From assembly GCF_007830435.1 (NCBI RefSeq), contig NZ_VLLC01000006.1:56404-120403 (forward strand): DNA of 64,000 nucleotides, in the 5' to 3' direction. The position numbers and the translations under genes were made by a program. Positions within the stretch are counted from its first letter, which is position 1, and the number at the start of each line of letters is the position of its first letter. This document shows positions 9,672 to 51,772 of this stretch, one piece after another. The notes beneath the pieces are model-generated. The model saw only the letters and a list, made by a program, of their open reading frames with translations. It made no database searches and was not told the origin of the DNA. The DNA comes from Desulfobotulus alkaliphilus (GTDB taxonomy: Bacteria > Desulfobacterota > Desulfobacteria > Desulfobacterales > ASO4-4).

Positions 9672-10268
9672 ATGCGTCATTTTGAGGAAATCCATTTTGC
9701 AGGAAAAATCACCGCTTCCGTTACCCATGAGCTGCGCAATGTTCTGGCGGTGATCCGGGAAACCAGCGGACTGATGCAGGATATCATGTCCCTGCAGGAT
9801 CAGGGGAAAAAAATCAGCGGGGAAGAGCGTATCCAGAGCGGTTTCAGGGCCATTTCAGATCAGATCCAGAGGGGAAGCCAGCTCATTGACCGTCTTAACC
9901 GCTTTGCCCACAGCTCCGACCACCCGGAGGAAAGTATCGATATCCAGGAGGCTGCCGCTGATTTTTTCCAACTGACGGAGCGTCTGTGCAGAATCCGGCG
10001 CATCACCCTTGTACCTGAAACAAGGGGGAACCCCATCCATATCACGGCCTCAAAATTCTATTTTTATGCGGCCCTCTTTCAGGCGCTGGAACACTGCCTG
10101 AGCCTTCCCGAAGACAGCCATATCCCCGTATCCTTTACAGAAAAATCAGAGATATACTTCCATGTATCAGGCCTTTTTGCCGAACCGGTGCAGAAAAAAC
10201 TGACCGGGGCCTTCCTCCTGACAGGTGATACCTGCAGCATTCGTATATCCCACAACACCGGTTCATAA
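9672..10268 (+). CDS. Histidine-kinase-like protein without recognisable ATPase domain
   Basis: A 198-aa soluble protein. The N-terminal ~100 residues look like a kinase dimerisation/phosphotransfer domain with ITASVTHELRNVLAVIRE, closely resembling active DHp sequences including the His-Glu-Leu-Arg-Asn core. The rest matches only the outline of an ATPase domain: ASKFYFYAALFQALEHCL resembles an N-box helix, but the Asn box and both glycine boxes are missing. It may be a phosphotransfer protein receiving phosphate from another kinase or receiver, like a pseudokinase-type Hpt. It starts 15 nt after the receiver gene with ribosome site AAGGGAG and probably ends the operon begun at 5778. Confidence 0.7.
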   Translation: MRHFEEIHFAGKITASVTHELRNVLAVIRETSGLMQDIMSLQDQGKKISGEERIQSGFRAISDQIQRGSQLIDRLNRFAHSSDHPEESIDIQEAAADFFQLTERLCRIRRITLVPETRGNPIHITASKFYFYAALFQALEHCLSLPEDSHIPVSFTEKSEIYFHVSGLFAEPVQKKLTGAFLLTGDTCSIRISHNTGS

Positions 10269-10466: not shown

Positions 10467-10524
10467 TTAAGGAAATAATCCGAAAACAGGACAGCATCAT
10501 CCTTTGAACGCATCAGGAGCATCC

Positions 10525-11736
10525 ATGACCATCCTTTCCCTTTTCAGTGTTCGGTATGCCGGAAGCGAGTCTCTGGTGGATGATCTCTGCCAGAAAACCC
10601 GCTCCCGACTCTTCCGGGATACGGATATTATCGAACGCTGCTCCCTCAGACACCACATCAAACCTGCGACTCTTAAAAAAGCCCTCTACTCAGGAACCAG
10701 TGTATTCAATAATTTTACCCACGAAAAAGAGTATGCCACCGCCTGCCTCAGGGCCACCCTTGCCGACCTCCTGGAAACCGAAGGCCAGATTTTTACAGGC
10801 CATACGGCCCTGCTTCTCCCCTTCTCCCTGAGCCATGTTCTGAGAATTCACATCACAGCAGGCCACAGGTGGCGGATCATGCAGGCCAGAGCCATGGGAA
10901 CCACGGAAAAGGAAGCCGAAGAAGAAATCCGCCGTCACGACACCATCACCGCCCTCTGGACCCGCCACCTCTGGAAAAAACCGTCCATGGATAAAGACCA
11001 CTTCCATATGATGCTGACCATGGACAAGGCAGAAAATCCCCTGGAAGAAATCCTTGAAACCATGGCGCAGCCCCGGCACCAGATTACAAAAGAAGGCCGC
11101 TGGGCCATGGAGGATTTCCGCCTCAGGACAAGGGTGGAGCTTGAACTCAATCTGGCAGGCCACGATGTGGCGGTGGATGTTTTTCAGGGCAGGGGCCGCC
11201 CCACCATAGAAAAAAAATTTCCCAGACCCTCAAAACTGGCAGAAGAACTGCACAGCATTGTCAGGGCATCTCCCGGAGTGCAGGAGGTGGAAATCTGCAT
11301 GGGACCCGTATCCGCCGATGCCAGAAACTACCACAGATACGATGCTGCCGTGGCCTGCAAGGTTCTTCTGGTGGACGATGAAAAGGAATTTGTCCAGACA
11401 CTTTCGGAACGCCTGCGCATGAGGGAATATCCAAGCCATGCGGTCTTTTCCGGACAAGAGGCTTTGGATCTGCTGGAAGAGGATGCACCGGATGTCATGG
11501 TTCTGGATCTCATGATGCCCGGCATCAATGGGTTTGAGGTGCTCCGCAGGACAAAGCAAAGCTACCCGGAGATAGAAATCATCATTCTTTCCGGCCATGG
11601 TTCGGAGACTGACCGGCAGCGCTGCATGGACATGGGGGCCTTTGCCTGCCTCCAGAAGCCTGCGGATATCAATGAACTGAAGGCCGTCATCAATGAAGCC
11701 CATGCCCGTATCCTTAAAAGGCGGGAAACACCATGA
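10525..11736 (+). CDS. Cytidylate-kinase-like domain fused to a receiver
   Basis: A 403-aa protein. The ATG at 10525 follows AGGAG; a TTG 21 nt upstream is less likely. Residues ~1-185 resemble the cytidylate-kinase-like family (LFRDTDIIERC, IFTGHTALLLP, LRIHITAGHRWRIMQARAMG), but the P-loop is decayed (YAGSES instead of GSGGR), so nucleotide kinase activity is doubtful. Residues ~185-275 form a small alpha/beta linker, perhaps BON-like. Residues ~280-403 are a full receiver: VDDEKEF, phospho-Asp in VMVLDLMMPG, Ser in ILSGHGS and Lys in CLQKPAD. It is preceded by a sigma-54 promoter and followed by a receiver and an SLC13 permease. The domain combination suggests phosphorylation-controlled binding of a nucleotide or partner (inference). 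Confidence 0.8.
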   Translation: MTILSLFSVRYAGSESLVDDLCQKTRSRLFRDTDIIERCSLRHHIKPATLKKALYSGTSVFNNFTHEKEYATACLRATLADLLETEGQIFTGHTALLLPFSLSHVLRIHITAGHRWRIMQARAMGTTEKEAEEEIRRHDTITALWTRHLWKKPSMDKDHFHMMLTMDKAENPLEEILETMAQPRHQITKEGRWAMEDFRLRTRVELELNLAGHDVAVDVFQGRGRPTIEKKFPRPSKLAEELHSIVRASPGVQEVEICMGPVSADARNYHRYDAAVACKVLLVDDEKEFVQTLSERLRMREYPSHAVFSGQEALDLLEEDAPDVMVLDLMMPGINGFEVLRRTKQSYPEIEIIILSGHGSETDRQRCMDMGAFACLQKPADINELKAVINEAHARILKRRETP

Positions 11737-17738: not shown

Positions 17739-19211
17739 ATGGCTGAAAACACACAGGAGCTGAAAAAACCCGGCCCCAATGAACTGGTGATTGATGAGCA
17801 TCCGGAAACACCCCCCCAGTCCGGCATGAGTATCATCATCAAATGCGCCATTGCCATTGCCTTAGGGATTTTTGTTTATATCCTTCCCACACCGGACAAC
17901 CTTTCCCCCGAAGGCCACAAGCTGCTGGCCCTTCTGGTCACGGTTCTTGTTCTCTGGATCACTGAAGCCATACCCATTGGTGTCACGGCCCTCTGCGTGG
18001 GTGCGGGCATGATCGCTTTAAATATTGTGGGCAGAAACGACGCCTGGACCCCCTATGCCAACCCTGCCGTTATGTTCGTTCTCATGATCATCATGTTCGG
18101 CGTTGTCTTGAATGAGGTGGGCCTTGCCAAACGCCTCATGTATCACCTTTTAAAAATTGCAGGCACCAATGTAAAAAAACTGAGCCTGATCCTTGCCGTG
18201 GGCTGCACTTCGCTGGCCACCATCCTCCACGATGCCACGGTTACCGTTGTCATGGTATTTGCCTTTGTTCCCGTTTTCATGGCCATGGGCATGAAGCCCG
18301 GCGCAGGCCACAAGCTGCCCAAATTCTTCCTCATGCTCATTCCCATGGCAGCATCCGCAGGGGGCTTTGGCACCATGATCGGTGGCGGTCGTAACCCACT
18401 GGCTCTGGAAATTCTTTATCGCTACACCCATGAGACCACAGGTGTGGGCAAGGTCATCGGCTTCATGGAGTACCTCATTATCCAGTTTCCCATCAGCCTT
18501 TTCACAGGCGTTGCCACCTGGGCTGTGGTTTACCTTCTCTTCAGACCCGAAGAAAAGGAGCTGGTGGGTGTTAAACTGGAAGATCCCGGTCCCATGAGTA
18601 CGGCGGAACTGGGTGTGGGCCTTGTTTTCCTTGGTGCCTTTATCCTCTGGTTCCTTGGAGATATCACGGGCTGGCATGTGAGTGTGGTGGCAGCCATGGC
18701 CATGGTGGGCTTCTGCGCTCCGGGCTGGGTTTCCTTTAAAACCATCTGTGACAAATTCCCCTGGGAGTCCTGGATTGTATTCGGCGCTGGCGTCTCCTTA
18801 GGCCTTGCCATGCTGAAAACCGGTGCAGGTCAGTTCCTTGCGGAATCCTGCCTGCCCCTCCTTGAAGGTCAGGGATCCTTTGTCACCTTCTTTGGCCTTG
18901 GCTTCTTCGGCTCCTTCCTCTCCAGCCTCATGAGTAACTCAGCAGCCGTGGCCCTGACCCTGCCCATCACCCTGCCCATGGCGGACATGCTGAACATGTC
19001 GCCTGTGGCCGTAGCCCTGCTGGCACCCATCACCACCTCCTTCATCATGCTGGTCATCGGCTGCCCTCCCACCATCATCGCCTACAGTGCTGGCTACTTC
19101 ACCCAGGTGGATTTCATTAAGGTAGCCGTGCCCTGGTGTATCTGCCTGCTGGTGATTTCCGTGGCTGCCGCCCTTTTATACTGGCCCATGATAGGGGTGT
19201 ATGGGGGTTAA
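17739..19211 (+). CDS. DASS/SLC13-family anion permease, paralog A
   Basis: A 490-aa permease with ~12 hydrophobic segments. Family signatures: first-half loop GGGRNPLAL with the preceding ASAGGFGTMI, and second-half MSNSAAVALTLPITLP followed by IGCPPTIIAYSAGYF. It is preceded by AAGGAG and followed by a terminator-like hairpin and a receiver gene. It is very similar end to end to the 20375 gene, so the permease-receiver pair has been duplicated in tandem. The substrate is a dicarboxylate, sulfate, sulfonate or similar anion; no residue seen here decides. Confidence 0.9.
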   Translation: MAENTQELKKPGPNELVIDEHPETPPQSGMSIIIKCAIAIALGIFVYILPTPDNLSPEGHKLLALLVTVLVLWITEAIPIGVTALCVGAGMIALNIVGRNDAWTPYANPAVMFVLMIIMFGVVLNEVGLAKRLMYHLLKIAGTNVKKLSLILAVGCTSLATILHDATVTVVMVFAFVPVFMAMGMKPGAGHKLPKFFLMLIPMAASAGGFGTMIGGGRNPLALEILYRYTHETTGVGKVIGFMEYLIIQFPISLFTGVATWAVVYLLFRPEEKELVGVKLEDPGPMSTAELGVGLVFLGAFILWFLGDITGWHVSVVAAMAMVGFCAPGWVSFKTICDKFPWESWIVFGAGVSLGLAMLKTGAGQFLAESCLPLLEGQGSFVTFFGLGFFGSFLSSLMSNSAAVALTLPITLPMADMLNMSPVAVALLAPITTSFIMLVIGCPPTIIAYSAGYFTQVDFIKVAVPWCICLLVISVAAALLYWPMIGVYGG

Positions 19212-19244
19212 AAACCCATTTTCAAACAACAACACCATCGAAAA

Positions 19245-19268
19245 AACCGGACCTCTTCAGGTCCGGTT
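19245..19268 (+). terminator. Hairpin between permease A and its receiver
   Basis: AACCGGACCT (19245-19254), loop CTTC, AGGTCCGGTT (19259-19268): a perfect 10-bp stem followed by CATAAAAAAAGG rather than a T run. It may be a weak terminator or a processing/stability element setting the permease:receiver ratio. The receiver's ribosome site follows within 15 nt. Confidence 0.6.
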
Positions 19269-19291
19269 CATAAAAAAAGGAGATAAAACCC

Positions 19292-19735
19292 ATGGAACCC
19301 ATACGCATTCTGGTGGTGGACGATGAAAAGGATTTTACGGAAATGCTCTGCCTGCGACTGACGGAGGCAGGACATATGGCAGAGGCGGTGCATGATGGTC
19401 AGGCCTGCCTCAAAAAACTGGATGAAAAACCCTTTGACGTTCTGATTCTGGATATCCGCATGCCCGGCATGGACGGCCTGCAGGTTCTCAGACAGATTAA
19501 AACGGACCATATTTCAACGGAAGTCATCCTGCTCACAGGCCACGGCTCCACGGAAACCGCCGTGGAAGGCATGAAAAAAGGCGCCTTTGACTATGCCCTG
19601 AAGCCCTACGACTTTGCGGATCTCTTAGATAAAATCAAAGAAGCCCGTATGGTTAAAAATGAAAGGGAAAGGCGGATCATAAAGGCGGAGGAACGTTCCC
19701 GACTGGACAAACTGGAAAAACACATGCGTTTTTAA
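19292..19735 (+). CDS. Stand-alone receiver paired with permease A
   Basis: A 147-aa receiver: VDDEKDF, phospho-Asp near 54 in LILDIRMPG, Thr in LLTGHGS, Lys in YALKPYD. A charged coiled tail follows (KNERERRIIKAEERSRLDKL). It has no output domain. It closely resembles the 22279 receiver and the receiver domain fused to the SulP permease at 47337 (shared VDDEKDFTEML, EVILLTGHGS and LLDKIK). This pattern suggests that it contacts the permease or a shared partner directly. Confidence 0.93.
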   Translation: MEPIRILVVDDEKDFTEMLCLRLTEAGHMAEAVHDGQACLKKLDEKPFDVLILDIRMPGMDGLQVLRQIKTDHISTEVILLTGHGSTETAVEGMKKGAFDYALKPYDFADLLDKIKEARMVKNERERRIIKAEERSRLDKLEKHMRF

Positions 19736-20253: not shown

Positions 20254-20374
20254 AAAAAACCTTAAAAAGTGGCCTGAAATAAAAAAGCTATAAAAAATTC
20301 AGGCCTTTCTTCAACATCCTTCCCTGCTCAGGGAAGCAAAAATAAAACAGAAGATTGTGAAAGGAGTTTATACC

Positions 20375-21838
20375 ATGGGAGCCCAGGATCATGCGACCCC
20401 GCCCCCCAACCGCCTTGTTGACCACCATGAGGAACCCCAAAGTCCCCCGCAGTCCGGCATGAGCATCATCATCAAATGCACCGTTGCCGTTGCTCTGGGT
20501 ATCTTTGTCTATCTTCTTCCCACGCCGGACAATCTCTCTCCCGAAGGCCACAGACTGCTGGCCCTTCTGGTCACCATTCTTGTTCTATGGACAACCGAAG
20601 CCCTGCCCATCGGTGTCACAGCCCTCTGTGTCGGGGGCGGCATGATCGCCTTTGACATTGTGGGCAGAAACGATGCATGGACACCCTATGCCAACCCTGC
20701 GGTGATGTTTGTTCTCATGATCATCATGTTCGGTGTCATCCTCAACGAAGTGGGCCTTGCCAGACGGCTCATGTACTATCTGCTGAAATTTGCGGGAACC
20801 AACGTCAAAAAACTCAGCTTTATCCTTGCCGTGGGATGCACCCTTACGGCTACCGTACTCCACGATGCAACGGTCACCGTTATCATGGTGTTTGCCTTTG
20901 TTCCTGTTTTCATGGCCATGGGCATGAAGCCCGGCAGCGGCCACAAACTTCCCAAATTCTTTCTCATGCTCATTCCCATGGCTGCATCCGCAGGGGGCTT
21001 TGGCACCATGATCGGTGGCGGTCGTAACCCGCTGGCCCTGGAAGTGCTCTACCGCTACACCGAGGAAACCACGGGCGTGGGAAAGGTGATCGGCTTCATG
21101 GAGTACCTCATCATCCAGATGCCCATCAGTATCTTTACGGCCATTGCCACCTGGGCCGTGGTATATTTTCTTTTCAGACCCGAAGAAAAGGAACTCAAAG
21201 GCATTGAACTGGACGACCCCGGCCCCATGAGCACGGCGGAACTGGGGGTCAGCATTGTTTTTGTTCTGACCTTTATCCTCTGGTTTCTGGGAGATTTTAC
21301 GGGCTGGCATGTCAGCGTGGCCGCCTGTATTGCCATGGTAGGCTTCTGTGGCCCGGGATGGGTCTCCTTTAAAACCGTCTGCGACAAATTCCCCTGGGAA
21401 TCCTGGATCGTTTTTGGTGCCGGTGTTTCTCTGGGTATGGCCATGCTGCAGACGGGTGCGGGCCAGTTCCTTGCGGAAAGCCTGCTTCCCATGCTGGAAG
21501 GAAAAAGCAGCTTCACCATTTTCTATGGCCTTGGACTTTTCGGCTCCTTCCTCTCCAGTCTCATGAGCAACTCCGCAGCGGTGGCCCTGACCCTGCCCAT
21601 CACCCTGCCCATGGCGGACATGCTGAACATGTCTCCTGTGGCCGTAGCCCTTCTGGCCCCTGTGACCACCTCCTTTATCATGCTGGTCATCGGCTGCCCC
21701 CCCACCATCATTGCCTACAGCGCAGGCTATTTTACCCAGATAGACTTCATCAAGGTGGCCGTTCCCTGGTGCCTGATCCTGCTTCTTGTATCCGTGGCAG
21801 CGGCCCTGCTATACTGGCCTTTAATCGGCATACACTGA
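20375..21838 (+). CDS. DASS/SLC13-family anion permease, paralog B
   Basis: A 487-aa permease nearly collinear with the 17739 product: same N-terminal PPQSGMSIIIK, GGGRNPLAL loop, MSNSAAVALTLP and IGCPPTIIAYSAGYF. The ATG at 20375 follows GAAAGGAG; a GTG 18 nt upstream is part of that ribosome site. It has its own sigma-54 promoter. A small membrane protein gene lies 18 nt downstream, then a receiver. Differences from paralog A cluster in hydrophobic segments, so the substrate is probably the same or closely related. Confidence 0.9.
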   Translation: MGAQDHATPPPNRLVDHHEEPQSPPQSGMSIIIKCTVAVALGIFVYLLPTPDNLSPEGHRLLALLVTILVLWTTEALPIGVTALCVGGGMIAFDIVGRNDAWTPYANPAVMFVLMIIMFGVILNEVGLARRLMYYLLKFAGTNVKKLSFILAVGCTLTATVLHDATVTVIMVFAFVPVFMAMGMKPGSGHKLPKFFLMLIPMAASAGGFGTMIGGGRNPLALEVLYRYTEETTGVGKVIGFMEYLIIQMPISIFTAIATWAVVYFLFRPEEKELKGIELDDPGPMSTAELGVSIVFVLTFILWFLGDFTGWHVSVAACIAMVGFCGPGWVSFKTVCDKFPWESWIVFGAGVSLGMAMLQTGAGQFLAESLLPMLEGKSSFTIFYGLGLFGSFLSSLMSNSAAVALTLPITLPMADMLNMSPVAVALLAPVTTSFIMLVIGCPPTIIAYSAGYFTQIDFIKVAVPWCLILLLVSVAAALLYWPLIGIH

Positions 21839-21856
21839 TAAGAAAGGAGCTTACCC

Positions 21857-22114
21857 ATGGGCAGAGATGCGGAAAAAACCATGAAAGATCTTCCAGATGG
21901 CGAAAAGAAAAATGATGAAAAAATTAAAACCGAGGCAGACCACCTCTACGACCTGCTCCGGCCCCTGCATCATCTGCCCAGGGGTAAAAACACATGGAAC
22001 CCTGCAATCATTAAAAAATCATGGTTCTGGCCCCTCAGTGTGGCCATTCTGATGATTCTTTATTATGTTTATCCTCTGATCTGGGATTTTTTTGCCCAAA
22101 GCTCCGGTGGATAA
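21857..22114 (+). CDS. Small single-span membrane protein
   Basis: An 85-aa protein. The first ~50 residues are charged and soluble, followed by one membrane helix (about 57-76, FWPLSVAILMILYYVYPLIW) and a short tail. AAGGAG precedes the ATG. No family recognised. Its place between permease B and the receiver suggests an accessory subunit of the permease; permease A lacks such a partner. Confidence 0.7.
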   Translation: MGRDAEKTMKDLPDGEKKNDEKIKTEADHLYDLLRPLHHLPRGKNTWNPAIIKKSWFWPLSVAILMILYYVYPLIWDFFAQSSGG

Positions 22115-22146
22115 AACCCAGCGCTGCCGGGACCAGTTCCTGAAAT

Positions 22147-22260
22147 CCCCCCCTCTCCACCGGCGACCGAGATCCTCGAAGCCGGGCCCGGAGTGGGGGG
22201 CAATACACGGATTCAATGAATCCCGGAGCCAGCCTGAATAACATACAGCCCGAGGGGCTG
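22147..22260 (+). other. Folded leader upstream of the second receiver
   Basis: Several short helices are readable: CCCCCC (22148-22153) and CTCC (22155-22158) pair with GGAG and GGGGGG (22190-22200), enclosing CCGGC/GCCGG and CGAG/CTCG. Two separate hairpins follow, GGATTC-AAT-GAATCC (22209-22223) and CAGCCC-GAG-GGGCTG (22246-22260), the latter just before the ribosome site. It may limit read-through or translation of the receiver relative to the permease. Confidence 0.45.
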
Positions 22261-22278
22261 CACAGAAAGGAGACATCC

Positions 22279-22722
22279 ATGGTTCCCATCCGCATCCTTG
22301 TGGTGGACGATGAAAAGGACTTTACGGAAATACTCTGCATGAGACTCAACGCCGCAGGCTTTCAGGCCGATGAGGTGCATAGTGGTCTGGACGGCCTGAA
22401 AATGCTGGATACCAAGCCCTATGACGTTCTTATTCTGGATATCCGCATGCCCGGCATGGACGGACTTCAGGTACTGAGGCAGATCAAGACCGATCATATC
22501 TCAACGGAAGTAATTCTTCTTACGGGCCACGGCTCTACAGAAACCGCAGTGGAAGGCATGAAGCGGGGTGCCTTTGATTATGCCCTGAAACCCTATGACT
22601 TCAAGGAGCTGGTTGAAAAAATAAAAGAGGCCGCAGAGGTCAAAAGGAAAAGAGAAGCACGCATCCGGAGGGCCGAAGAACGCTCCCGTCTGGATAAATT
22701 GGAAAAAAGCATGCGGTTTTAG
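22279..22722 (+). CDS. Stand-alone receiver paired with permease B
   Basis: A 147-aa receiver. The ATG at 22279 follows AAAGGAG; an in-frame ATG 63 nt upstream lies in the folded leader. It has VDDEKDF, phospho-Asp in LILDIRMPG, LLTGHGS, YALKPYD and a charged tail ending KLEKSMRF. It is a close paralog of the 19292 product and the last gene of the island. A palindromic element begins 2 nt after its stop, so the element may supply its transcript end. Confidence 0.93.
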   Translation: MVPIRILVVDDEKDFTEILCMRLNAAGFQADEVHSGLDGLKMLDTKPYDVLILDIRMPGMDGLQVLRQIKTDHISTEVILLTGHGSTETAVEGMKRGAFDYALKPYDFKELVEKIKEAAEVKRKREARIRRAEERSRLDKLEKSMRF

Positions 22723-29812: not shown

Positions 29813-30127
29813 CAGGACCGGAATTTGCATACCCTGCGTCCATATAAGACCCCCTGATATACCCGTGGCTCCTGCAGGATCAAAACCCAAAAAGTCCTTT
29901 AAAATTCAGGGGCTTTCAACCTTAAAGAGGAGCTGCACCCGGAAAACTTCTGTCAACTCTTTCAAAAAGGAAAAATTCCATGAAAAAATCCTGGACCATA
30001 GGAAAAAAACTCATCACGGCTTTCCTTTCCGTTTCCCTCATCACCCTCTTTGTGGGCCTTGTCAGTTTTGTCAGCATGTTCCGCGTATCCGGTGTGGCAG
30101 AAAACCTTGCCCAAAGCAGTGTACCCG
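29529..30127 (+). repeat. 599-bp direct repeat, left copy
   Basis: Matches 39890-40488 over its full length with roughly 8 percent scattered differences. It joins the 3' end of a receiver-kinase gene (intact at 39027) to the 5' end of an MCP gene (intact here). Homology stops sharply on both sides: upstream at TTTTTCAAAAAACCGAC, downstream at GTACCCG. Confidence 0.95.
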
Positions 30128-40172: not shown

Positions 40173-40488
40173 CAGGACCGGAATTTGCATACCCTGCCTC
40201 CATAAACACCCTCTGATATACCCGTGGCTCCTGCAGGGTCAAAACCCAAAAAGCCCTTTAAAATGAAGGGGCTCTCAGCCTTAAAGGGGGAGGCTGGACC
40301 CGGAAGGCTTCTGTCAACTCTTTCAAAACGGGAAAATTCCATGAAAAAATCCTGGACCATAGGAAAAAAACTCATCACGGCTTTCCTTTCCGTTTCCCCC
40401 ATTACCCTCTTTGTGGGCCTTGTCAGTTTTGTCAGCATCTTCCGCGTATCCGGTGTGGCAGAAAGCCTTGCCCAAAGCAGCGTACCCG
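39890..40488 (+). repeat. 599-bp direct repeat, right copy
   Basis: Same-orientation partner of 29529-30127. It contains the intact 3' end of the receiver-kinase and a truncated MCP start. Homology ends at 40488, 3 nt before the aldehyde dehydrogenase stop codon on the other strand. Confidence 0.95.
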
Positions 40489-40508
40489 AAATTAAATTCT
40501 GCCCATGA
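40341..40508 (+). pseudogene. Truncated MCP gene start
   Basis: The first 49 or so codons match the MCP at 29980, including signal helix and the [18 protein letters not shown] opening, with its ribosome site. After the repeat ends, the frame runs a few codons into antisense aldehyde dehydrogenase sequence and stops at 40508. A 55-aa membrane stub at most. Confidence 0.85.
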
Positions 40509-43066: not shown

Positions 43067-43465
43067 ATGATCCCGTGCCTATACATTCTTTTTGCGGATC
43101 CCAACCCCCACATATGCCAGCTTCTCCAGAGGGAACTCCGCATGCTGCCCTGCAAAGCACTGGCTTTCTGTACAGGATATGCTCTCATGGAAAGAATTCA
43201 GCAGGATACAAAAAATGGCATTACACCGGATCTTGTGGTACTGGATCCGGATCTGGCGGATATCCGCAGGGAAGACCTGCTGGCAGCCCTGCACATGCAG
43301 CTTCCCACAACACCGCTGGTACTGCATTCCCTCCATGCAGAACAAAGACACCGCATGGATATGCCCCTGCCGCCCCTCCTGATTTTTATTGAAAAAAACA
43401 GCGGCAGCCATATCCGTATCCGCAGGCTCATTGAAACCCGCATACAATGGCAGGGGGATCATTAA
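43067..43465 (+). CDS. Receiver-like protein, divergent
   Basis: A 132-aa protein. The ATG at 43067 follows AAGGAAGG; an in-frame start 69 nt upstream overlaps the promoter. It keeps the outline of a receiver: YILFADPNPHIC where the acidic pair would be (one Asp left), phospho-Asp candidate in LVVLDPDLADI, and Lys in LIFIEKNSG. The MPG loop after the Asp is missing. Phosphorylation is uncertain. It is the first gene after the sigma-54 promoters and ends 2 nt before the kinase start, so it may be a kinase partner or inhibitor. Confidence 0.65.
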   Translation: MIPCLYILFADPNPHICQLLQRELRMLPCKALAFCTGYALMERIQQDTKNGITPDLVVLDPDLADIRREDLLAALHMQLPTTPLVLHSLHAEQRHRMDMPLPPLLIFIEKNSGSHIRIRRLIETRIQWQGDH

Positions 43466-43467
43466 AA

Positions 43468-45246
43468 ATGAAAAAAACCAAACCAGACACACTTTCTTTT
43501 ATACCGTTTCCCTCGGCACATGGAGAAGCCATAAAACCCCATGATGCCTACGCAAGGCTTGCCCGGCGTATGGTCATCACATCCCTTTTTATCAGCCTTG
43601 CCCCCCTCCTCCTGGTGCTGGCCATTACCCTGAACAGGTATGACAGCACCACAAGGGAAAAAATATACAATAACCTCAGTGCCGTTGTGGAACACAACCG
43701 TGCTGAGATTGATGCTTTTCTAAAGGAAAAAACATCCAACCTCCAGAGTCTCATCCTTTTTTCACCTCCGGAGGTTTTGCAGGAGCCCGGTGTCATGGAA
43801 TCCCATCTCCGCAGACTACGGCGGGTATATGGCCCTGTTTTTGAAGATATCGGCCTGGTCTCCGCAACCACAGGCATCCTTACAAGCTATGCAGGTCCCT
43901 TCAGGCTGGGTGCTGCGGATTACAGTCAGGCCGAATGGTATCTGGAATTTCTTCAGAGCAATCAAACCCATGCCGTAAGTGATGTTTTCCTTGGCCTGCG
44001 CGGCATGCCCCACTTCATTATCATGGTTAAAGCCATTGATAACAATGGAAAGCCATGGATACTCCGGGCCACCATTGATTTTGAATCCTTTAACACCATT
44101 GTCCGGAATCTCAGGATCGGCGAAAGGGGTTTTGTCACCATCCTTAACCGTCAGGGCGAGCTGCAGACCCGGCCCCTTCAGGATATCTCCCCCCACACCG
44201 AAGTGTACCAGAAGCTTTTAAACAGCCCCTCCGGAGATGCTCTCATTTTTCATCAGGCCAAAGATAAAAACGGCCATAACCAGATTTATGTGGCAGGTTT
44301 TCTGAAAAACGGTGAATGGATGCTGATTTCCCAGCAACCCGAATCCGATGCCTTTTCCGATCTCATCCGGACCCGCAAAATGGGCATTTTCCTCTTTATG
44401 GGCTGCACTCTGGTCATTGCCTTTCTGGCCACCCGTTTTTCTAGGCAACTGGTACACGCCCTCCAGAGAAAGGAAGCAGAAAAACAGATGATGAACCGGC
44501 AGGTCATTGAAACGGGCAAGCTGGCTTCCATAGGGGAACTTGCCTCGGGCATTGCCCATGAAATCAACAACCCCGTGGCCATTATGGTGGAAGAAGCCGG
44601 CTGGATAGACGATCTCCTTGCGGAAGAAAACCCCGATCAGATCAAAAACATGGATGAATTCCGCACCTCCCTCAACCAGATCCGCACCCAGGGCCAGCGC
44701 TGCAAGGAAATTACCCGCAAGCTCCTCACCTTTGCCCGGAAATCCGAATCCAGCAACGAAGCCCTTCTGATCAATGACATGATCCGGGAAGTGCTTCCCC
44801 TCTGCGAACCAAGGGCCCGCTATGCCCAGGTGAGCATAGAAACCCGCCTTGCTCCGGATCTGCACAGGGTCATGGCCTCAAGGACCGAGGTACAGCAGGT
44901 GATACTCAACCTTGCCAACAATGCCATTGATGCCATGGAAAACGAGGGGGGCAGCCTCTCCTTTGAAACGGTAAATCATGATGATTTTCTGGAGATTCTC
45001 ATAACAGATACGGGCCCCGGCATACCCGAAGCCAACCTGAAACGCATCTTTGATCCTTTTTTCACCACCAAGCCGGTGGGCAAGGGAACGGGGCTGGGCC
45101 TTTCCATCTGTTACGGCATCATTGCCACCATGGGCGGAAAGCTTGAGGTGGAAAGCATGATGGGTGCAGGCACCACCTTCCGGATTCTTCTGCCTGCCAT
45201 ACGGGAAATAAACGTGGATGAAGAAAATTCCTTTCACGAATCATAA
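43468..45246 (+). CDS. Membrane sensor histidine kinase (dCache-like)
   Basis: A 592-aa kinase resembling the 7519 product. The ATG at 43468 is preferred over one 21 nt upstream inside the previous gene. Membrane segments near 38-58 and 305-325 flank a double-Cache-like sensor ([36 protein letters not shown]). Cytoplasmic motifs: [59 protein letters not shown] and [10 protein letters not shown]. Two stand-alone receivers and a receiver-kinase follow, so its phosphoryl targets are local. Confidence 0.93.
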
Positions 45247-45290
45247 ACAGAGTCAAAAACCTTTAACGCCATCGGCAAGGAGTGAAAATC

Positions 45291-45725
45291 ATGATTAAAA
45301 GAAAAGTTCTTCTCACAGATGATGAAACCGGCTTTGTGGAAACCCTTTCCAAACGACTGGAAAAAAGGGATTTCCGGCTGGCTGCCGCCTTTTCAGGAGA
45401 CGAGGCCCTCAGGGTTCTGGCGGAAAACCCCTGGGTGGATGTGGTCATTCTTGACGTAAAAATGCCCGGCATGGACGGCATTGAAACCCTAAGCCGCATC
45501 AAGCTGGAGTTTCCCCTGGTGGAAGTCATCATGCTCACAGGCCATGCCACGGTGGAAACGGCCATCGACGGCATGAAAAAAGGTGCCTTTGATTATCTCA
45601 TGAAACCCTGTGACATCGATATCCTCACGGCCAAGGTGGATGAAGCCACCGCAAGGAAAAAGGCCCATGAGGAAAAAATTGTGAGTGCAAAAGCCATGGC
45701 CATCGCCAACCAGAGGGGGGACTGA
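45291..45725 (+). CDS. Stand-alone receiver with charged tail
   Basis: A 144-aa receiver; the ATG at 45291 follows AAGGAG (a GTG at 45282 overlaps that site). TDDETGF replaces the usual VDDE, phospho-Asp in VVILDVKMPG, Thr in MLTGHAT, Lys in YLMKPCD, and a tail ARKKAHEEKIVSAKA like the permease-linked receivers. The stop overlaps the next start (TGATG). Confidence 0.93.
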   Translation: MIKRKVLLTDDETGFVETLSKRLEKRDFRLAAAFSGDEALRVLAENPWVDVVILDVKMPGMDGIETLSRIKLEFPLVEVIMLTGHATVETAIDGMKKGAFDYLMKPCDIDILTAKVDEATARKKAHEEKIVSAKAMAIANQRGD

Positions 45726-46099
45726 TGCCTGAAGCCTGCCGTCTGCTCCTCGTGGACGATGAATCCGGCTATGTCCGTGTTCTGGGAAACCGTCTGGAAA
45801 AAAGGGGCTTTTCCGTGCTTCGGGCCACCAGCGGTGCCGATGCCATCCGTCTTCTCCGCCATGATACTGCGGATGTGGCCATACTGGATCTGAAGATGGA
45901 AGATATGGACGGCTTGGATGTACTGAAAATTTTCCAGCGCATGGCCCCGGAAACCGCCGTTATCATGCTCACCGGTCACGGCAGCGAAGAAGCCAGAAAA
46001 GAGGCCCTGAAGGCAGGGGCCTCCGACTATCTGACCAAACCCTGTGAACTGGAAACCATGCTGGAAGCCATCAACAGAATCCTTGACATAAGGGGATAG
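45725..46099 (+). CDS. Stand-alone receiver
   Basis: A 124-aa receiver without tail: VDDESGY, phospho-Asp in VAILDLKMEDMDG (the usual Pro-Gly after Met is Glu-Asp), Thr in MLTGHGS, Lys in YLTKPCE. Coupled to the receiver before it; the receiver-kinase begins 3 nt later. Three receivers in a row with two kinases suggest a relay or a phosphate sink. Confidence 0.93.
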   Translation: MPEACRLLLVDDESGYVRVLGNRLEKRGFSVLRATSGADAIRLLRHDTADVAILDLKMEDMDGLDVLKIFQRMAPETAVIMLTGHGSEEARKEALKAGASDYLTKPCELETMLEAINRILDIRG

Positions 46100-46102
46100 G
46101 CC

Positions 46103-47266
46103 ATGCCCAACACCGGAAGACGTTACCATGATGTTTCCCTTGTGCTGGTGGACGATGAACAGGCCTTCCGCGAAGCCCTGGCCAGACGCCTTGAGAAACG
46201 AAATCTGAAGGTTTTCCCCACGGGTTCTGCCCGTGAGGCCATGGCCCTGCTGGAAACAGAAAATGCGGACGTGGTGGTTTCCGACATACGCATGCCGGAA
46301 CAGGACGGGCTCAGTCTCATGGCCCGAATCCGGGAGATTTACCCTGACATGGAGGTGATTCTCTTAACGGGTCAGGGGGATATCCGGGAGGGGGTTGAGG
46401 GGATCAGGGCCGGTGCCTTTGACTACATCACCAAGCCTGTGGAGATCGACCACATAGAAAGCAAGATCTTTCAGGCTGCGGCAGCGGTGCGCCGCCGCAG
46501 GGAAAGGAAGGCCGAAGGTGAAATCCGCAAAGAGCTTGAGGAAAGGGCCATTCAGGCAGAAAAACTTGCCACCGTGGGCACCCTTGCCACGGGCGTTGCC
46601 CATGAGATCAACAATCCCCTTGCCATCATCAATGAAGCGGCAGGGTGGATAGGGCAGGTGATGGACCGGCCTTCCATGCAGGATCTTCCGGAAAAAGCCA
46701 GCCTGAAACGGGCCTCGGATGTCATACAGACCGCCGTGGAAAGGGCAAGGCGCATTACCCACCAGCTTCTGGGCATGGTCCGCAGGGAGGCCGAAGCCCC
46801 CGGACCCTGTGACATGCCTGCCTTTCTTCAGGAAGTGGCCTCCCTGAGCCGTACCATCCATCCTGAAAGTGAAGTCACCATTGTGGTGGAAAACGGTCCG
46901 GAACTCACCCTTTTTACCGATCCCCACAGGCTTCGGCAGATCCTTGTAAATCTTGTGGAAAACGCCATACAGGCCATGCCAAAAGGCGGCTGCGTCAGTC
47001 TTTCCGCCTTTGCACCGGAAAAGGAAAAAATATCCATACAGATCAAAGACACGGGCCCCGGTATCCCTGAAAGCGTAAAAAAGAGAATTTTTGATCCCTT
47101 TTACACCACAAAGCCCCAGGGCAAGGGTACGGGTCTTGGCCTTTACCTCTGCCGGGATCTGGCCCATCAGCTGGGCGGAGAGCTTGTGGTTTCCAGTCGG
47201 CCCGGGGAAGGAGCCTCCTTTATCCTCACCCTTCCCGGAGTACTGCCAAAAACGGCATCCACCTGA
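46103..47266 (+). CDS. Soluble receiver-histidine kinase
   Basis: A 387-aa protein: N-terminal receiver (VDDEQAF, phospho-Asp in VVVSDIRMPEQDG, LLTGQGD, YITKPVE), coiled linker, DHp with LATVGTLATGVAHEINNPLAI, and a full ATPase domain ([47 protein letters not shown]). Input is through its own receiver, so it can be driven by the 43468 kinase and in turn phosphorylate the receivers at 45291 and 45725 or the receiver on the SulP permease, whose gene begins 70 nt later. Confidence 0.93.
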   Translation: MPNTGRRYHDVSLVLVDDEQAFREALARRLEKRNLKVFPTGSAREAMALLETENADVVVSDIRMPEQDGLSLMARIREIYPDMEVILLTGQGDIREGVEGIRAGAFDYITKPVEIDHIESKIFQAAAAVRRRRERKAEGEIRKELEERAIQAEKLATVGTLATGVAHEINNPLAIINEAAGWIGQVMDRPSMQDLPEKASLKRASDVIQTAVERARRITHQLLGMVRREAEAPGPCDMPAFLQEVASLSRTIHPESEVTIVVENGPELTLFTDPHRLRQILVNLVENAIQAMPKGGCVSLSAFAPEKEKISIQIKDTGPGIPESVKKRIFDPFYTTKPQGKGTGLGLYLCRDLAHQLGGELVVSSRPGEGASFILTLPGVLPKTAST

Positions 47267-47336
47267 CAAACCTCACCCATAAAAAAACACAGGGAGGTTT
47301 CCTTATCCCCTGAATAACGAAATAACCGGAGGATTC

Positions 47337-49388
47337 ATGATTTCCACCTTATCCATGCCCCGCATCCGGGGAGATCTTTTCGGAGGACTGACCGCAGGAG
47401 TTGTGGCCCTTCCCCTGGCCCTGGCCTTTGGTGTGGCTTCGGGAGCCGGAGCTGCAGCAGGCTTATACGGAGCCATCATGCTGGGCCTGATTGCTGCTCT
47501 GGCGGGCGGAACGAAAATGCAGATCTCCGGCCCTACCGGCCCCATGACCGTGGTTTTTGCTGCCATTCTCATATCCATGGAGGGAAACATTGCCATGGTC
47601 ATGGGTGCCGTTCTTGTCTGTGGTGTGGTACAGATCCTGCTTGGCCTCAGCAAGACCGGAGCCCTTGTCAAATTTATTCCCTACCCGGTGGTATCGGGTT
47701 TCATGAGCGGCATCGGGCTCATCATTATCCTTCTTCAGATTGCTCCGCTGCTGGGCGCACCCTCACAGGCTTCACCCACGGGTGCAATTTTTGCCATACC
47801 TGAAACCTTAATGTCCATTAATTTTCAGGCGGCCTTTCTATCCCTCCTTACCCTGCTCATTGTTTTCCTGACTCCCATGAGCATCAGCCGTATTCTCCCC
47901 TCTCCCCTGCTGGCCCTCATCAGCGTAACCCTCATCTCCATTGCAGCGGGCTTCAAAGTGCCTGTCATAGGAGAAATTCCCATGGGGCTACCGGACCTCA
48001 CCCTGCCTCTCTTCAGCATGGAAACCCTGAAGCCCGTGATTGTTGCAGGCGTTACCCTTGCCCTTCTCGGCAGCATAGACAGCCTTCTCACCTCCCTTGT
48101 GGCGGACTCCGTAACAGGTACCCGCCACAACTCCAACCGGGAGCTTGTGGGGCAGGGCCTTGGCAATACCCTATGCGCATTTGTGGGGGGGATTCCCGGA
48201 GCCGGAGCCACCATGCGCACAGTCGTGAATATCAAAGCAGGGGGAAGTACACGCATCAGCGGCGTCACCCATGCGGTTTTTCTTCTGATTCTTCTTCTGG
48301 GCGCCGCACCTCTGGCCCAGAACATTCCTCTGGCCGTTCTTGCAGGCATCCTCATCAAAGTAGGACTGGATATTCTGGACTACCGTTTTATCAAACTTCT
48401 TAAAACAGCCCCCAAAGATGATCTCATGGTCATGACCGCAGTCTTTGTACTCACGGTTTTTGTGGATCTCATCATTGCCGTAGGAGTGGGGGTTCTCTTT
48501 TCCATGGCACTGATCACCAAAAGGGTCAGCAGTCAGGCCCGCGTCAGCATCTGGCCCGATGACGAGAGTGCCACCAGCCGTATGCAGGGACAAGTAAGGG
48601 TACTTGAAATTCAGGGAGCTTTTTTCTTCGGATCCACCAGTCGCCTCACGGACAATGTGGATCAGGTAATGGGTACAAAGGTCATCATTTTCAACTGCAG
48701 TCGCATCCCCTTCATTGACCTGAGTGCCGTTTTTGCGCTGGAGGAAACCATTGAACGGCTCAAAGCCTCAAAAATCACCTCCCTTGTGGTCATGCCCCCG
48801 CAAATCAGGGCACAGCTCATCAACCTGAACCATGAAGGACTTCCATCCCAGATAATATTTCCGGACCTTAAAAGCGCACTCATGGAAGCAGAAATCTTTA
48901 CGCAGCCTGAAAAAAGCCCCAAAGCTCTGGTCCCCGGTGCCCGTATTCTGCTGGTGGATGATGAAAAGGACTTCACGGAAATGCTTGCTCTGCGCCTTGA
49001 AGAAAGGGGACACATTATTTCCCTTGCCCACGACGGCAGGGAAGGACTGAACCTTCTTAGGGAAAAGCCACAGGATGTGGTTGTACTGGATCTCCGCATG
49101 CCCGGGATGGGCGGACTTGAGGTACTGGCAGAGTTGAAAAAAGAGTTTCCCTCCGTAGAGGTTATTCTTCTCACAGGCCACGGAAGCGAAGAAAGTGCCG
49201 TTCAGGGTATGCGCATGGGAGCCTTTGACTACCTCCTTAAACCCGCAGAATTTTCAGAACTTCTGGATAAAATCAAGGCCGCCCGAAGGCGCAAGGTCAG
49301 CCAGGAAGAGCGTATACGTCAGGCAGAAGCAAGACTTATATCTCCCCGGACTCCCCAAAGTACGGATCTGCAGCATCAGGAAAACTAA
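47337..49388 (+). CDS. SulP anion permease fused to STAS and receiver domains
   Basis: A 683-aa protein. Residues ~10-410 are a SulP (SLC26) membrane domain: GDLFGGLTAGVVALPLALAF, ISGPTGPMTVV, then SLLTSLVADSVTGTRHNSNR and GAGATMRTVVNIKAGG. Residues ~425-525 are a STAS domain (LEIQGAFFFGST, FIDLSAVFALEE). Residues ~534-650 are a complete receiver: LLVDDEKDFTEML, phospho-Asp ~585 in VVVLDLRMPGMGG, Thr in ILLTGHGS, Lys ~635 in YLLKPAE, with a tail like the stand-alone receivers. Frame is continuous with no break at the junction. It follows a kinase cluster. This architecture predicts phosphorylation-controlled anion transport. Substrates of SulP proteins include sulfate, bicarbonate and dicarboxylates. 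Confidence 0.93.
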   Translation: MISTLSMPRIRGDLFGGLTAGVVALPLALAFGVASGAGAAAGLYGAIMLGLIAALAGGTKMQISGPTGPMTVVFAAILISMEGNIAMVMGAVLVCGVVQILLGLSKTGALVKFIPYPVVSGFMSGIGLIIILLQIAPLLGAPSQASPTGAIFAIPETLMSINFQAAFLSLLTLLIVFLTPMSISRILPSPLLALISVTLISIAAGFKVPVIGEIPMGLPDLTLPLFSMETLKPVIVAGVTLALLGSIDSLLTSLVADSVTGTRHNSNRELVGQGLGNTLCAFVGGIPGAGATMRTVVNIKAGGSTRISGVTHAVFLLILLLGAAPLAQNIPLAVLAGILIKVGLDILDYRFIKLLKTAPKDDLMVMTAVFVLTVFVDLIIAVGVGVLFSMALITKRVSSQARVSIWPDDESATSRMQGQVRVLEIQGAFFFGSTSRLTDNVDQVMGTKVIIFNCSRIPFIDLSAVFALEETIERLKASKITSLVVMPPQIRAQLINLNHEGLPSQIIFPDLKSALMEAEIFTQPEKSPKALVPGARILLVDDEKDFTEMLALRLEERGHIISLAHDGREGLNLLREKPQDVVVLDLRMPGMGGLEVLAELKKEFPSVEVILLTGHGSEESAVQGMRMGAFDYLLKPAEFSELLDKIKAARRRKVSQEERIRQAEARLISPRTPQSTDLQHQEN

Positions 49389-49398
49389 TATTCTGACC

Positions 49399-49440
49399 TG
49401 CCGTTTCTTGAGTACCTGAGGCATTGCTCAAGAAACGGCA
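49399..49440 (+). terminator. Perfect 14-bp hairpin after the SulP-receiver gene
   Basis: TGCCGTTTCTTGAG (49399-49412) pairs with CTCAAGAAACGGCA (49427-49440) around a 14-nt loop. No T run follows, so it may be a factor-dependent end or a stability element. Confidence 0.55.
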
Positions 49441-50197: not shown

Positions 50198-51772
50198 ATG
50201 ACTAACACCTTTTCCACCAAAACCCTCCGGGGAGATCTTTTCGGCGGACTCACCGCCGGCATTGTCGCCCTCCCCCTTGCCCTTGCCTTTGGCGTTGCTT
50301 CCGGTGCAGGAGCCGCCGCAGGCCTTTACGGAGCCATCATGCTGGGCATGGTGGCCGCCATTTTTGGCGGTACCCGCACCCAGATATCCGGCCCCACAGG
50401 CCCCATGACCGTTGTATTTGCATCCATTCTCGTGGCTGTAGGCGGTGACCTTGCCACGGCCATGTCTGCTGTACTCATTGCCGGACTTATCCAGATCATC
50501 ATGGGCTGCGTAAAGGTTGGCGGCCTCGTGCGCTTTATCCCCTACCCTGTGATATCCGGTTTTATGAGCGGCATCGGCATTATCATCATTCTGCTGCAGA
50601 TAGCCCCTCTAATGGGAACATCTCCCAAAACGTCACCCTTCCTTGCCATCATGACACTGCCCTCCACCCTTATGGCCCTTAATTTTCAGGCACTGATACT
50701 GGGCGGGCTGACCCTGCTCATCGTTTTTTTTACTCCCATGCGCATCAGCCGGATAATTCCATCCCCTCTGATTGCCCTGATCGCCATAACCCTTCTCTCC
50801 ATGGGACTGGGCTTCAAGGTTCCCGTCATCGGTGAAATTCCCCTTGGACTTCCTGAATTTATCATGCCAGCCTTCTGTCTCCAGGCATGGACCACCATCC
50901 TTGTTCTGGGCATTACCCTTGCCCTTCTGGGAAGCATTGACTCCCTGCTTACTTCCCTTGTGGCAGACTCGGTCACAGGCACCCGCCATAAACCCAACCG
51001 GGAACTGATCGGTCAGGGTCTGGGAAATATGATGTGTTCCTTTGTGGGGGGCCTTCCCGGCGCAGGCGCCACCATGCGCACGGTGGTCAACATCAAGGCA
51101 GGTGGACAGACAAGAATCAGCGGTGTCACCCATGCAAGCCTTCTGCTCATCCTTCTTCTGGGAGCCGCGCCCCTGGCCACCAACATCCCCATGGCGGTTC
51201 TTGCGGGTATTCTCATCAAAGTCGGCGTTGATATTCTGGACTACAAGCTCCTTCGCCTCATAAAAACCGCTCCACGGACAGACCTTTCCGTTATGGCCGT
51301 GGTTTTCGGACTCACGGTGTTTGTGGATCTCATCATTGCCGTGGGCGCAGGCGTTTTCATGTCTATGGGTATGATCATCCACCGTATGGTCCGGCAGGCC
51401 AACTTCAAAATTTACCCTCTGGATAACACCCGATCCGATGCCATGGAAGGCAGAATCCGTATCCTTGAAATAAACGGCCCCTTTTTCTTCGGTTCCATGA
51501 GCAAGCTTGTGGATGAAGTGGACACGGTACTGGATACAAAGGTAATTATTTTTGATTGCCGCAAGGTTCCCTTCATTGACCTGAGTGCTATTTTTGCTCT
51601 GGAAGAAATTATTCTCCGCCTTAAGAGCTCGCACATTCAAACCTTCATTGTACTAAGTGAAGTACTCCGAAATGAACTTGTGCATCTCCACGACAAAGAT
51701 CTTCCCGAAGAAATTCTCTTTGTGGATTTTGAAAACGCACTGGAAGAAGCAAGAAAAATAGATAAAAAATAA
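50198..51772 (+). CDS. SulP anion permease with STAS domain
   Basis: A 524-aa SulP (SLC26) permease. The ATG at 50198 follows GGAGAG; a longer frame from 50078 adds 40 residues unlike the family. It is strongly similar to the membrane and STAS parts of the 47337 product (GDLFGGLTAGIVALPLALAF, ISGPTGPMTVV, SLLTSLVADSVTGTRH, LEINGPFFFGSM, FIDLSAIFALEE) but ends after STAS. So one paralog carries the receiver and the other does not, a natural pair for testing what the receiver adds. Confidence 0.94.
   Translation: MTNTFSTKTLRGDLFGGLTAGIVALPLALAFGVASGAGAAAGLYGAIMLGMVAAIFGGTRTQISGPTGPMTVVFASILVAVGGDLATAMSAVLIAGLIQIIMGCVKVGGLVRFIPYPVISGFMSGIGIIIILLQIAPLMGTSPKTSPFLAIMTLPSTLMALNFQALILGGLTLLIVFFTPMRISRIIPSPLIALIAITLLSMGLGFKVPVIGEIPLGLPEFIMPAFCLQAWTTILVLGITLALLGSIDSLLTSLVADSVTGTRHKPNRELIGQGLGNMMCSFVGGLPGAGATMRTVVNIKAGGQTRISGVTHASLLLILLLGAAPLATNIPMAVLAGILIKVGVDILDYKLLRLIKTAPRTDLSVMAVVFGLTVFVDLIIAVGAGVFMSMGMIIHRMVRQANFKIYPLDNTRSDAMEGRIRILEINGPFFFGSMSKLVDEVDTVLDTKVIIFDCRKVPFIDLSAIFALEEIILRLKSSHIQTFIVLSEVLRNELVHLHDKDLPEEILFVDFENALEEARKIDKK

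Follow-up and report, generated by a model that had tools for sequence, protein, structure and literature searches.

A SulP permease of Desulfobotulus alkaliphilus with a C-terminal receiver domain, a candidate for direct phosphorelay control of anion transport

The output of a two-component system is usually taken to be gene regulation or motility. Within the window, the whole 64,000-nucleotide stretch of Desulfobotulus alkaliphilus DNA analysed here, a gene at 47337-49388 (+ strand) joins an anion permease to a phospho-acceptor receiver, and the question arises whether in this case the phosphorelay ends in a transporter. The gene is a single open frame of 683 amino acids with zero internal stops in translation. 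Pfam analysis identified three domains in the order Sulfate_transp (residues 11-368; 47367-48440; E = 3e-82), STAS (residues 417-497; 48585-48827; E = 1e-11) and Response_reg (residues 537-647; 48945-49277; E = 1.5e-28), all exceeding the gathering cut-offs. Both the membrane domain (276.8 bits against a curated cut-off of 23.2) and the STAS domain (44.5 bits against 22.6) are those of the SulP/SLC26 family. The catalytic set of the receiver is complete, including the acidic pair D541/D542, the phospho-acceptor D585 (codon at 49089-49091), T613 and K635, all of which are unchanged across 20 related receivers in an alignment. The original prediction of one chain holding SulP, STAS and a complete receiver with Asp near 585 and Lys near 635 is borne out by the open frame, the Pfam domains and these catalytic residues.

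A missed stop, a frameshift or a mis-assembly could have joined two separate genes in this way, but the intact fused frame is present in both of the other species of the genus compared (G001, 98% identity; G002, 88% identity), the gene order around it is the same in all three species, and the sequence is under purifying selection with an overall omega of about 0.07-0.11. The membrane, STAS and receiver parts, on both sides of the junction, all show little nonsynonymous change, and drift is confined to the last 30 residues or so. Since the frame, the gene order and the selection are all shared, an artefact was rejected as having a negligible probability; the break between STAS and receiver that the original prediction had singled out for checking is not there in any of the three species, and the fusion is a real, selected protein.

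The STAS and receiver domains are connected by a linker of low confidence in the AlphaFold2 model (about residues 519-534; 48891-48938), with pLDDT under 50 at residues 524-534. The model as a whole (pTM 0.56) includes no confident STAS-receiver contact, as expected from an alignment without receiver rows, from which the receiver was modelled. Behind the receiver, a C-terminal helix and tail (49278-49385) are recognised from the alignment, the domain-wise dN and the model, in which the helix covers residues 636-667; the first part of the tail, EERIRxAE, is common to the stand-alone receivers found beside permeases, and its end is fast-evolving. Shortly 3' of the stop codon lies a perfect 14-bp inverted repeat (49399-49440) without a T run, which was not called by the terminator scan and is a possible transcript end.

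The search for other SulP-STAS-receiver proteins that had been proposed with the original prediction was carried out, and only members of the genus were found. No further SulP-receiver fusion was detected in the best 80 SulP loci of a genome scan of about 85,000 species, among the SulPs of 395 genomes of the phylum (30 loci read), or on plasmids, on which the four places covering more than 80% of the query represent a Staphylococcus SulP beside a universal stress protein. Within these three sets, the fusion is limited to one genus and three species. The long SulP frames read in the phylum set are, as judged from the C-termini of the 30 loci, SulP-STAS-cNMP-like proteins. These resemble the fusion in adding a C-terminal regulatory domain to a SulP, and several belong to the same phylum, but the added domain there is cyclic-nucleotide-like, whereas Response_reg is the sole Pfam domain after STAS in the fusion. 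Transporter and two-component parts are also combined in the SLC5-STAC histidine kinases (CbrA, CrbS) and in the Amt-histidine kinase (PMC5764959). Those proteins, however, are sensors with the kinase in the chain, whereas HisKA and HATPase domains are absent by Pfam from the fusion, which holds a receiver only and of which the transporter would be the output. Control of the PII type (GlnK on AmtB, SbtB on SbtA) is alike in that a cytoplasmic signalling protein acts directly on a permease, as proposed here, but the regulator is a separate, ligand-binding trimer and no His-Asp phosphotransfer is involved. SulPs with other regulatory C-termini are already known; the novelty, if it can be shown, would lie in a clade of receivers that serves secondary transporters specifically. 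In the open-access literature, neither a SulP-STAS-receiver protein nor receiver control of a SulP was found, in line with the statement of the original prediction that no such mechanism was known to it, and the architecture appears to be undescribed.

As to the transported ion, the best solved relative of the fusion is BicA (6ki1; phmmer E = 7e-100), the cyanobacterial SulP/SLC26 Na+/HCO3- symporter, which shares with it the SulP fold, the STAS domain and six ligand residues but is without a receiver. The Na+/HCO3- ligand residues of BicA, T69, D258, T262, G300, A301 and T302 (PMC13249358), correspond in the alignment to T67, D248, T252, G290, A291 and T292 of the fusion. Because all six are kept, Na+-coupled bicarbonate is more likely to be the substrate than sulfate, and the label "sulfate" on this BicA-like permease is probably a mislabel. 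BicA represents clade A of the SulPs in sulfate reducers, and Marietou et al. assigned the BicA-like SulPs of these bacteria to bicarbonate or dicarboxylates, not to sulfate (PMC5840216). A second SulP gene, also on the + strand and also syntenic, starts with the ATG at 50198 and ends at 51772. Its product is about 66% identical to the fusion and contains, by Pfam, SulP and STAS alone, just as had been read from the sequence at the outset.

Upstream of the fusion, the + strand carries a series of phosphorelay genes: a membrane Cache-domain histidine kinase with the H-box IAHEINNP (43447-45246), two stand-alone receivers (45282-45725 and 45725-46099), which belong to the R1 and R2 clades, respectively, and a soluble receiver-histidine kinase of the RECHK clade (46103-47266). 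The successive same-strand gaps from 43447 through 45282, 45725 and 46103 to 47337 are 35, -1, 3 and 70 bp. The Cache kinase is preceded by a degenerate receiver (43067-43465), which gives a partial Pfam match, has lost the acidic pair and is syntenic in three species; in several other genomes, too, short receivers like it are found ahead of the kinase. The block of genes from 43067 to 46103 and both SulP genes are syntenic in the three species of the genus; the flanking genes differ. The kinase at 46103 had been put forward as the candidate phosphodonor, but the putative partner is not that kinase by itself: it is a conserved module made up of the Cache kinase, two receivers, the receiver-kinase and the upstream pseudo-receiver.

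None of the module genes encodes a DNA-binding output recognised by Pfam. This bears on the direction of signalling, for the fusion might instead report the transport state or the substrate supply to the kinases, with the fused receiver serving as a docking and feedback point. A SulP protein within a two-component complex is on record in E. coli, in which the kinase DcuS is tuned by DctA and by the SulP protein DauA (PMC5703999), and the transporter here shares one gene cluster with kinases. Such reverse signalling, which we would regard as the main rival reading, is nevertheless unlikely, as the fusion chain terminates in a receiver, the receiving part, and not in a kinase, and as the module is without a transcriptional output for such a report to reach.

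The module is distributed far beyond the genus. Relatives of the Cache kinase were detected at E<1e-40 in 185 of 194 genomes of the order, not all of them being orthologs, and the neighbourhoods of the 40 closest (45-51% identical) were read. The commonest complete module is composed of the kinase, one or two receivers, an SLC13 permease of about 530 amino acids, the receiver-kinase and a stand-alone receiver of about 146 amino acids, and was found complete at 18 of the 40 loci, a 19th being cut by a contig end. In a second form, the permease is of the TauE/SafE type and is accompanied by a PEP-utilising enzyme. The existence of both forms indicates that the phosphorelay is tied to families of anion transporters, the transporter itself being interchangeable. 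At L211 (190-4968) the kinase/receiver module is followed by the TauE/SafE permease, a 228-amino-acid membrane protein of unknown kind and an 866-amino-acid PPDK/PEP-utiliser protein, a set that recurs at L214, L216, L228 and L257. At L251 (1283-7843) a TauE/SafE permease stands in the SLC13 position and the receiver-kinase and the terminal receiver are retained; this seems to be a further exchange of permease. A special divergence of the Cache sensor accompanying the change of transporter was also considered and found unsupported, the cache and kinase parts both being about 9-11 points lower.

In a tree of the module receivers, the classes (R1, R2, RECHK and terminal) match the position in the module. 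The original prediction had noted the likeness of the fused receiver to stand-alone receivers beside SLC13 permeases, two of which are encoded in the window on the + strand: an SLC13 permease and its receiver at 19292 (17739-19735), which represent the unfused counterpart, and a second such pair with the receiver at 22216 (20357-22722). The trees agree with this eye-made comparison. Among 49 receivers, the fused receiver, those at 19292 and 22216 and the terminal receivers of the SLC13 modules form one clade (support 90/92), the uniting branch being recovered in 88% of bootstrap trees, and within this permease-side clade the fused receiver is nearest to the window's own SLC13-side receivers (87/85). 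It shares on average 60% identity with terminal receivers, compared with 47-50% for the other receiver classes. Relative to the fusion locus, the SLC13 and TauE/SafE modules of Desulfobacterota share homologous kinases and receivers, with receivers of the same clade, but differ in the permease family and in that the receiver is unfused.

A profile of the permease-side clade was then scored over the 40 order-wide loci. It gave at least 239 bits wherever the SLC13 present was of the module or the 17739 type and 184 bits or less at the 20 others, so that permease-side receivers accompany matching SLC13 permeases at 20 of 20 sampled loci (one of them, L208, counted by position, its receiver being cut by an N gap) and are found at 0 of 20 loci without them; this co-occurrence partly reflects one inherited module, the 40 loci not being independent. 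Two loci with a receiver-kinase but without a permease have no permease-side receiver, while at L250 an SLC13 permease and a permease-side receiver occur together in a kinase-free neighbourhood. At L251 a weaker permease-side receiver follows the TauE/SafE module, and at further loci beyond the 40 such receivers again adjoin such SLC13 permeases. The profile separation together with these further loci indicates that the permease-side receiver tracks the permease. Among the matches to permease-side receivers listed in the 395 phylum genomes at over 200 bits, all are short, stand-alone frames except the fusion.

Several receivers lie within this one module, and phosphate sinks are known where several receivers share a module. 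The fused receiver could accordingly be a phosphate sink or a membrane tether for the relay, phosphorylated without effect on transport. We consider this distinctly improbable, because it leaves unexplained both why a receiver clade should follow permeases, including the L250 pair with no kinase nearby, and why fusion to the permease should be selected.

It is, in our judgement, somewhat more probable than not that phosphorylation of the receiver switches the transport activity of the fusion post-translationally. This reading is favoured by a module without DNA-binding output and by a receiver clade that follows permeases and not kinases, a link that the fusion makes explicit. In the scheme proposed, the fusion would work as an anion symporter of the BicA-like SulP kind, with Na+-coupled bicarbonate uptake as its most likely activity; the Cache kinase at 43447 would set the phosphorylation state of D585, either directly or via the two receivers and the soluble receiver-kinase; and the phosphorylated receiver would act on STAS or on the dimer interface and thereby change transport. 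The STAS domain of BicA is needed for dimerisation and transport; regulation of BicA is thought to be post-translational as well, but to run by different means, SbtB and phosphorylation (PMC13249358). With the receiver placed on STAS through a linker of about 15 residues, any effect of D585 phosphorylation on transport may well be exerted through STAS.

The same dependence of BicA dimerisation and transport on STAS would also fit control of assembly, stability or location of the transporter instead of its transport cycle, and receivers commonly dimerise when phosphorylated. Nothing specific speaks against this version, which sequence cannot separate from a switch of the transport cycle, but we take it to be very unlikely. 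Against switching of transport in general, it should be counted that the unfused paralog at 50198 has no receiver in its chain and evidently functions all the same, that the fusion is limited to one genus (three species), and that a receiver may also serve as a phosphate sink.

The fusion suggests that permease-side receivers control transporters directly. More tentatively, with somewhat less than even confidence, the permease-side receivers of Desulfobacterota may be dedicated subunits that switch SLC13, TauE/SafE and SulP permeases by His-Asp phosphorylation, the fusion revealing a branch of two-component systems with transporters as output. It would then hint at what many of the orphan single-domain receivers encoded next to transporters do in these anaerobes. 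The fusion offers a concrete single-protein system for testing direct phospho-control of ion uptake, and it bears on how anion entry may be controlled faster than by transcription in these bacteria.

With regard to origin, the SulPs of the genus appear to have been gained horizontally, since the tree joins them to the SulPs of Thauera, Pseudothauera, Nitrincola and Desulfuromonadales (SH-aLRT 100) and separates them from the SulPs found elsewhere in the order. The genus lacks a module-type SLC13, the best match being 36% identical and of the 17739/20357 type; the place of that permease is occupied by the two BicA-like SulPs, one of which has the permease-side-clade receiver as its tail. The simplest history would be that an acquired SulP took the place of SLC13 in the order-wide permease-phosphorelay module and was then joined to the permease-partner receiver. 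The fused receiver may be the terminal receiver of the module itself, or it may have been copied from the SLC13-side receiver at 19292 or 22216. In the sister species G001, a remnant of a third SulP lies on contig C1 at 83799-84496 (in L168), matching only query residues 4-106 and 403-520, which adjoin each other.

Other genes of the window are also of note. In the SLC13 block, the gene at 10504-11736 encodes another unusual receiver fusion, in which the receiver lies behind a Cytidylate_kin2-like domain, and is kept in the other two species (94% and 66%). The region 9672-10268 encodes a 198-amino-acid protein with HisKA but without a recognised ATPase domain, which adjoins a Cache kinase and a receiver, is conserved in the genus (77% and 54%) and is possibly a phosphotransfer protein. 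At 40343-40508, beside an aldehyde dehydrogenase gene, the N-terminus of the chemoreceptor-like gene at 29980 recurs in truncated and nearly identical form.
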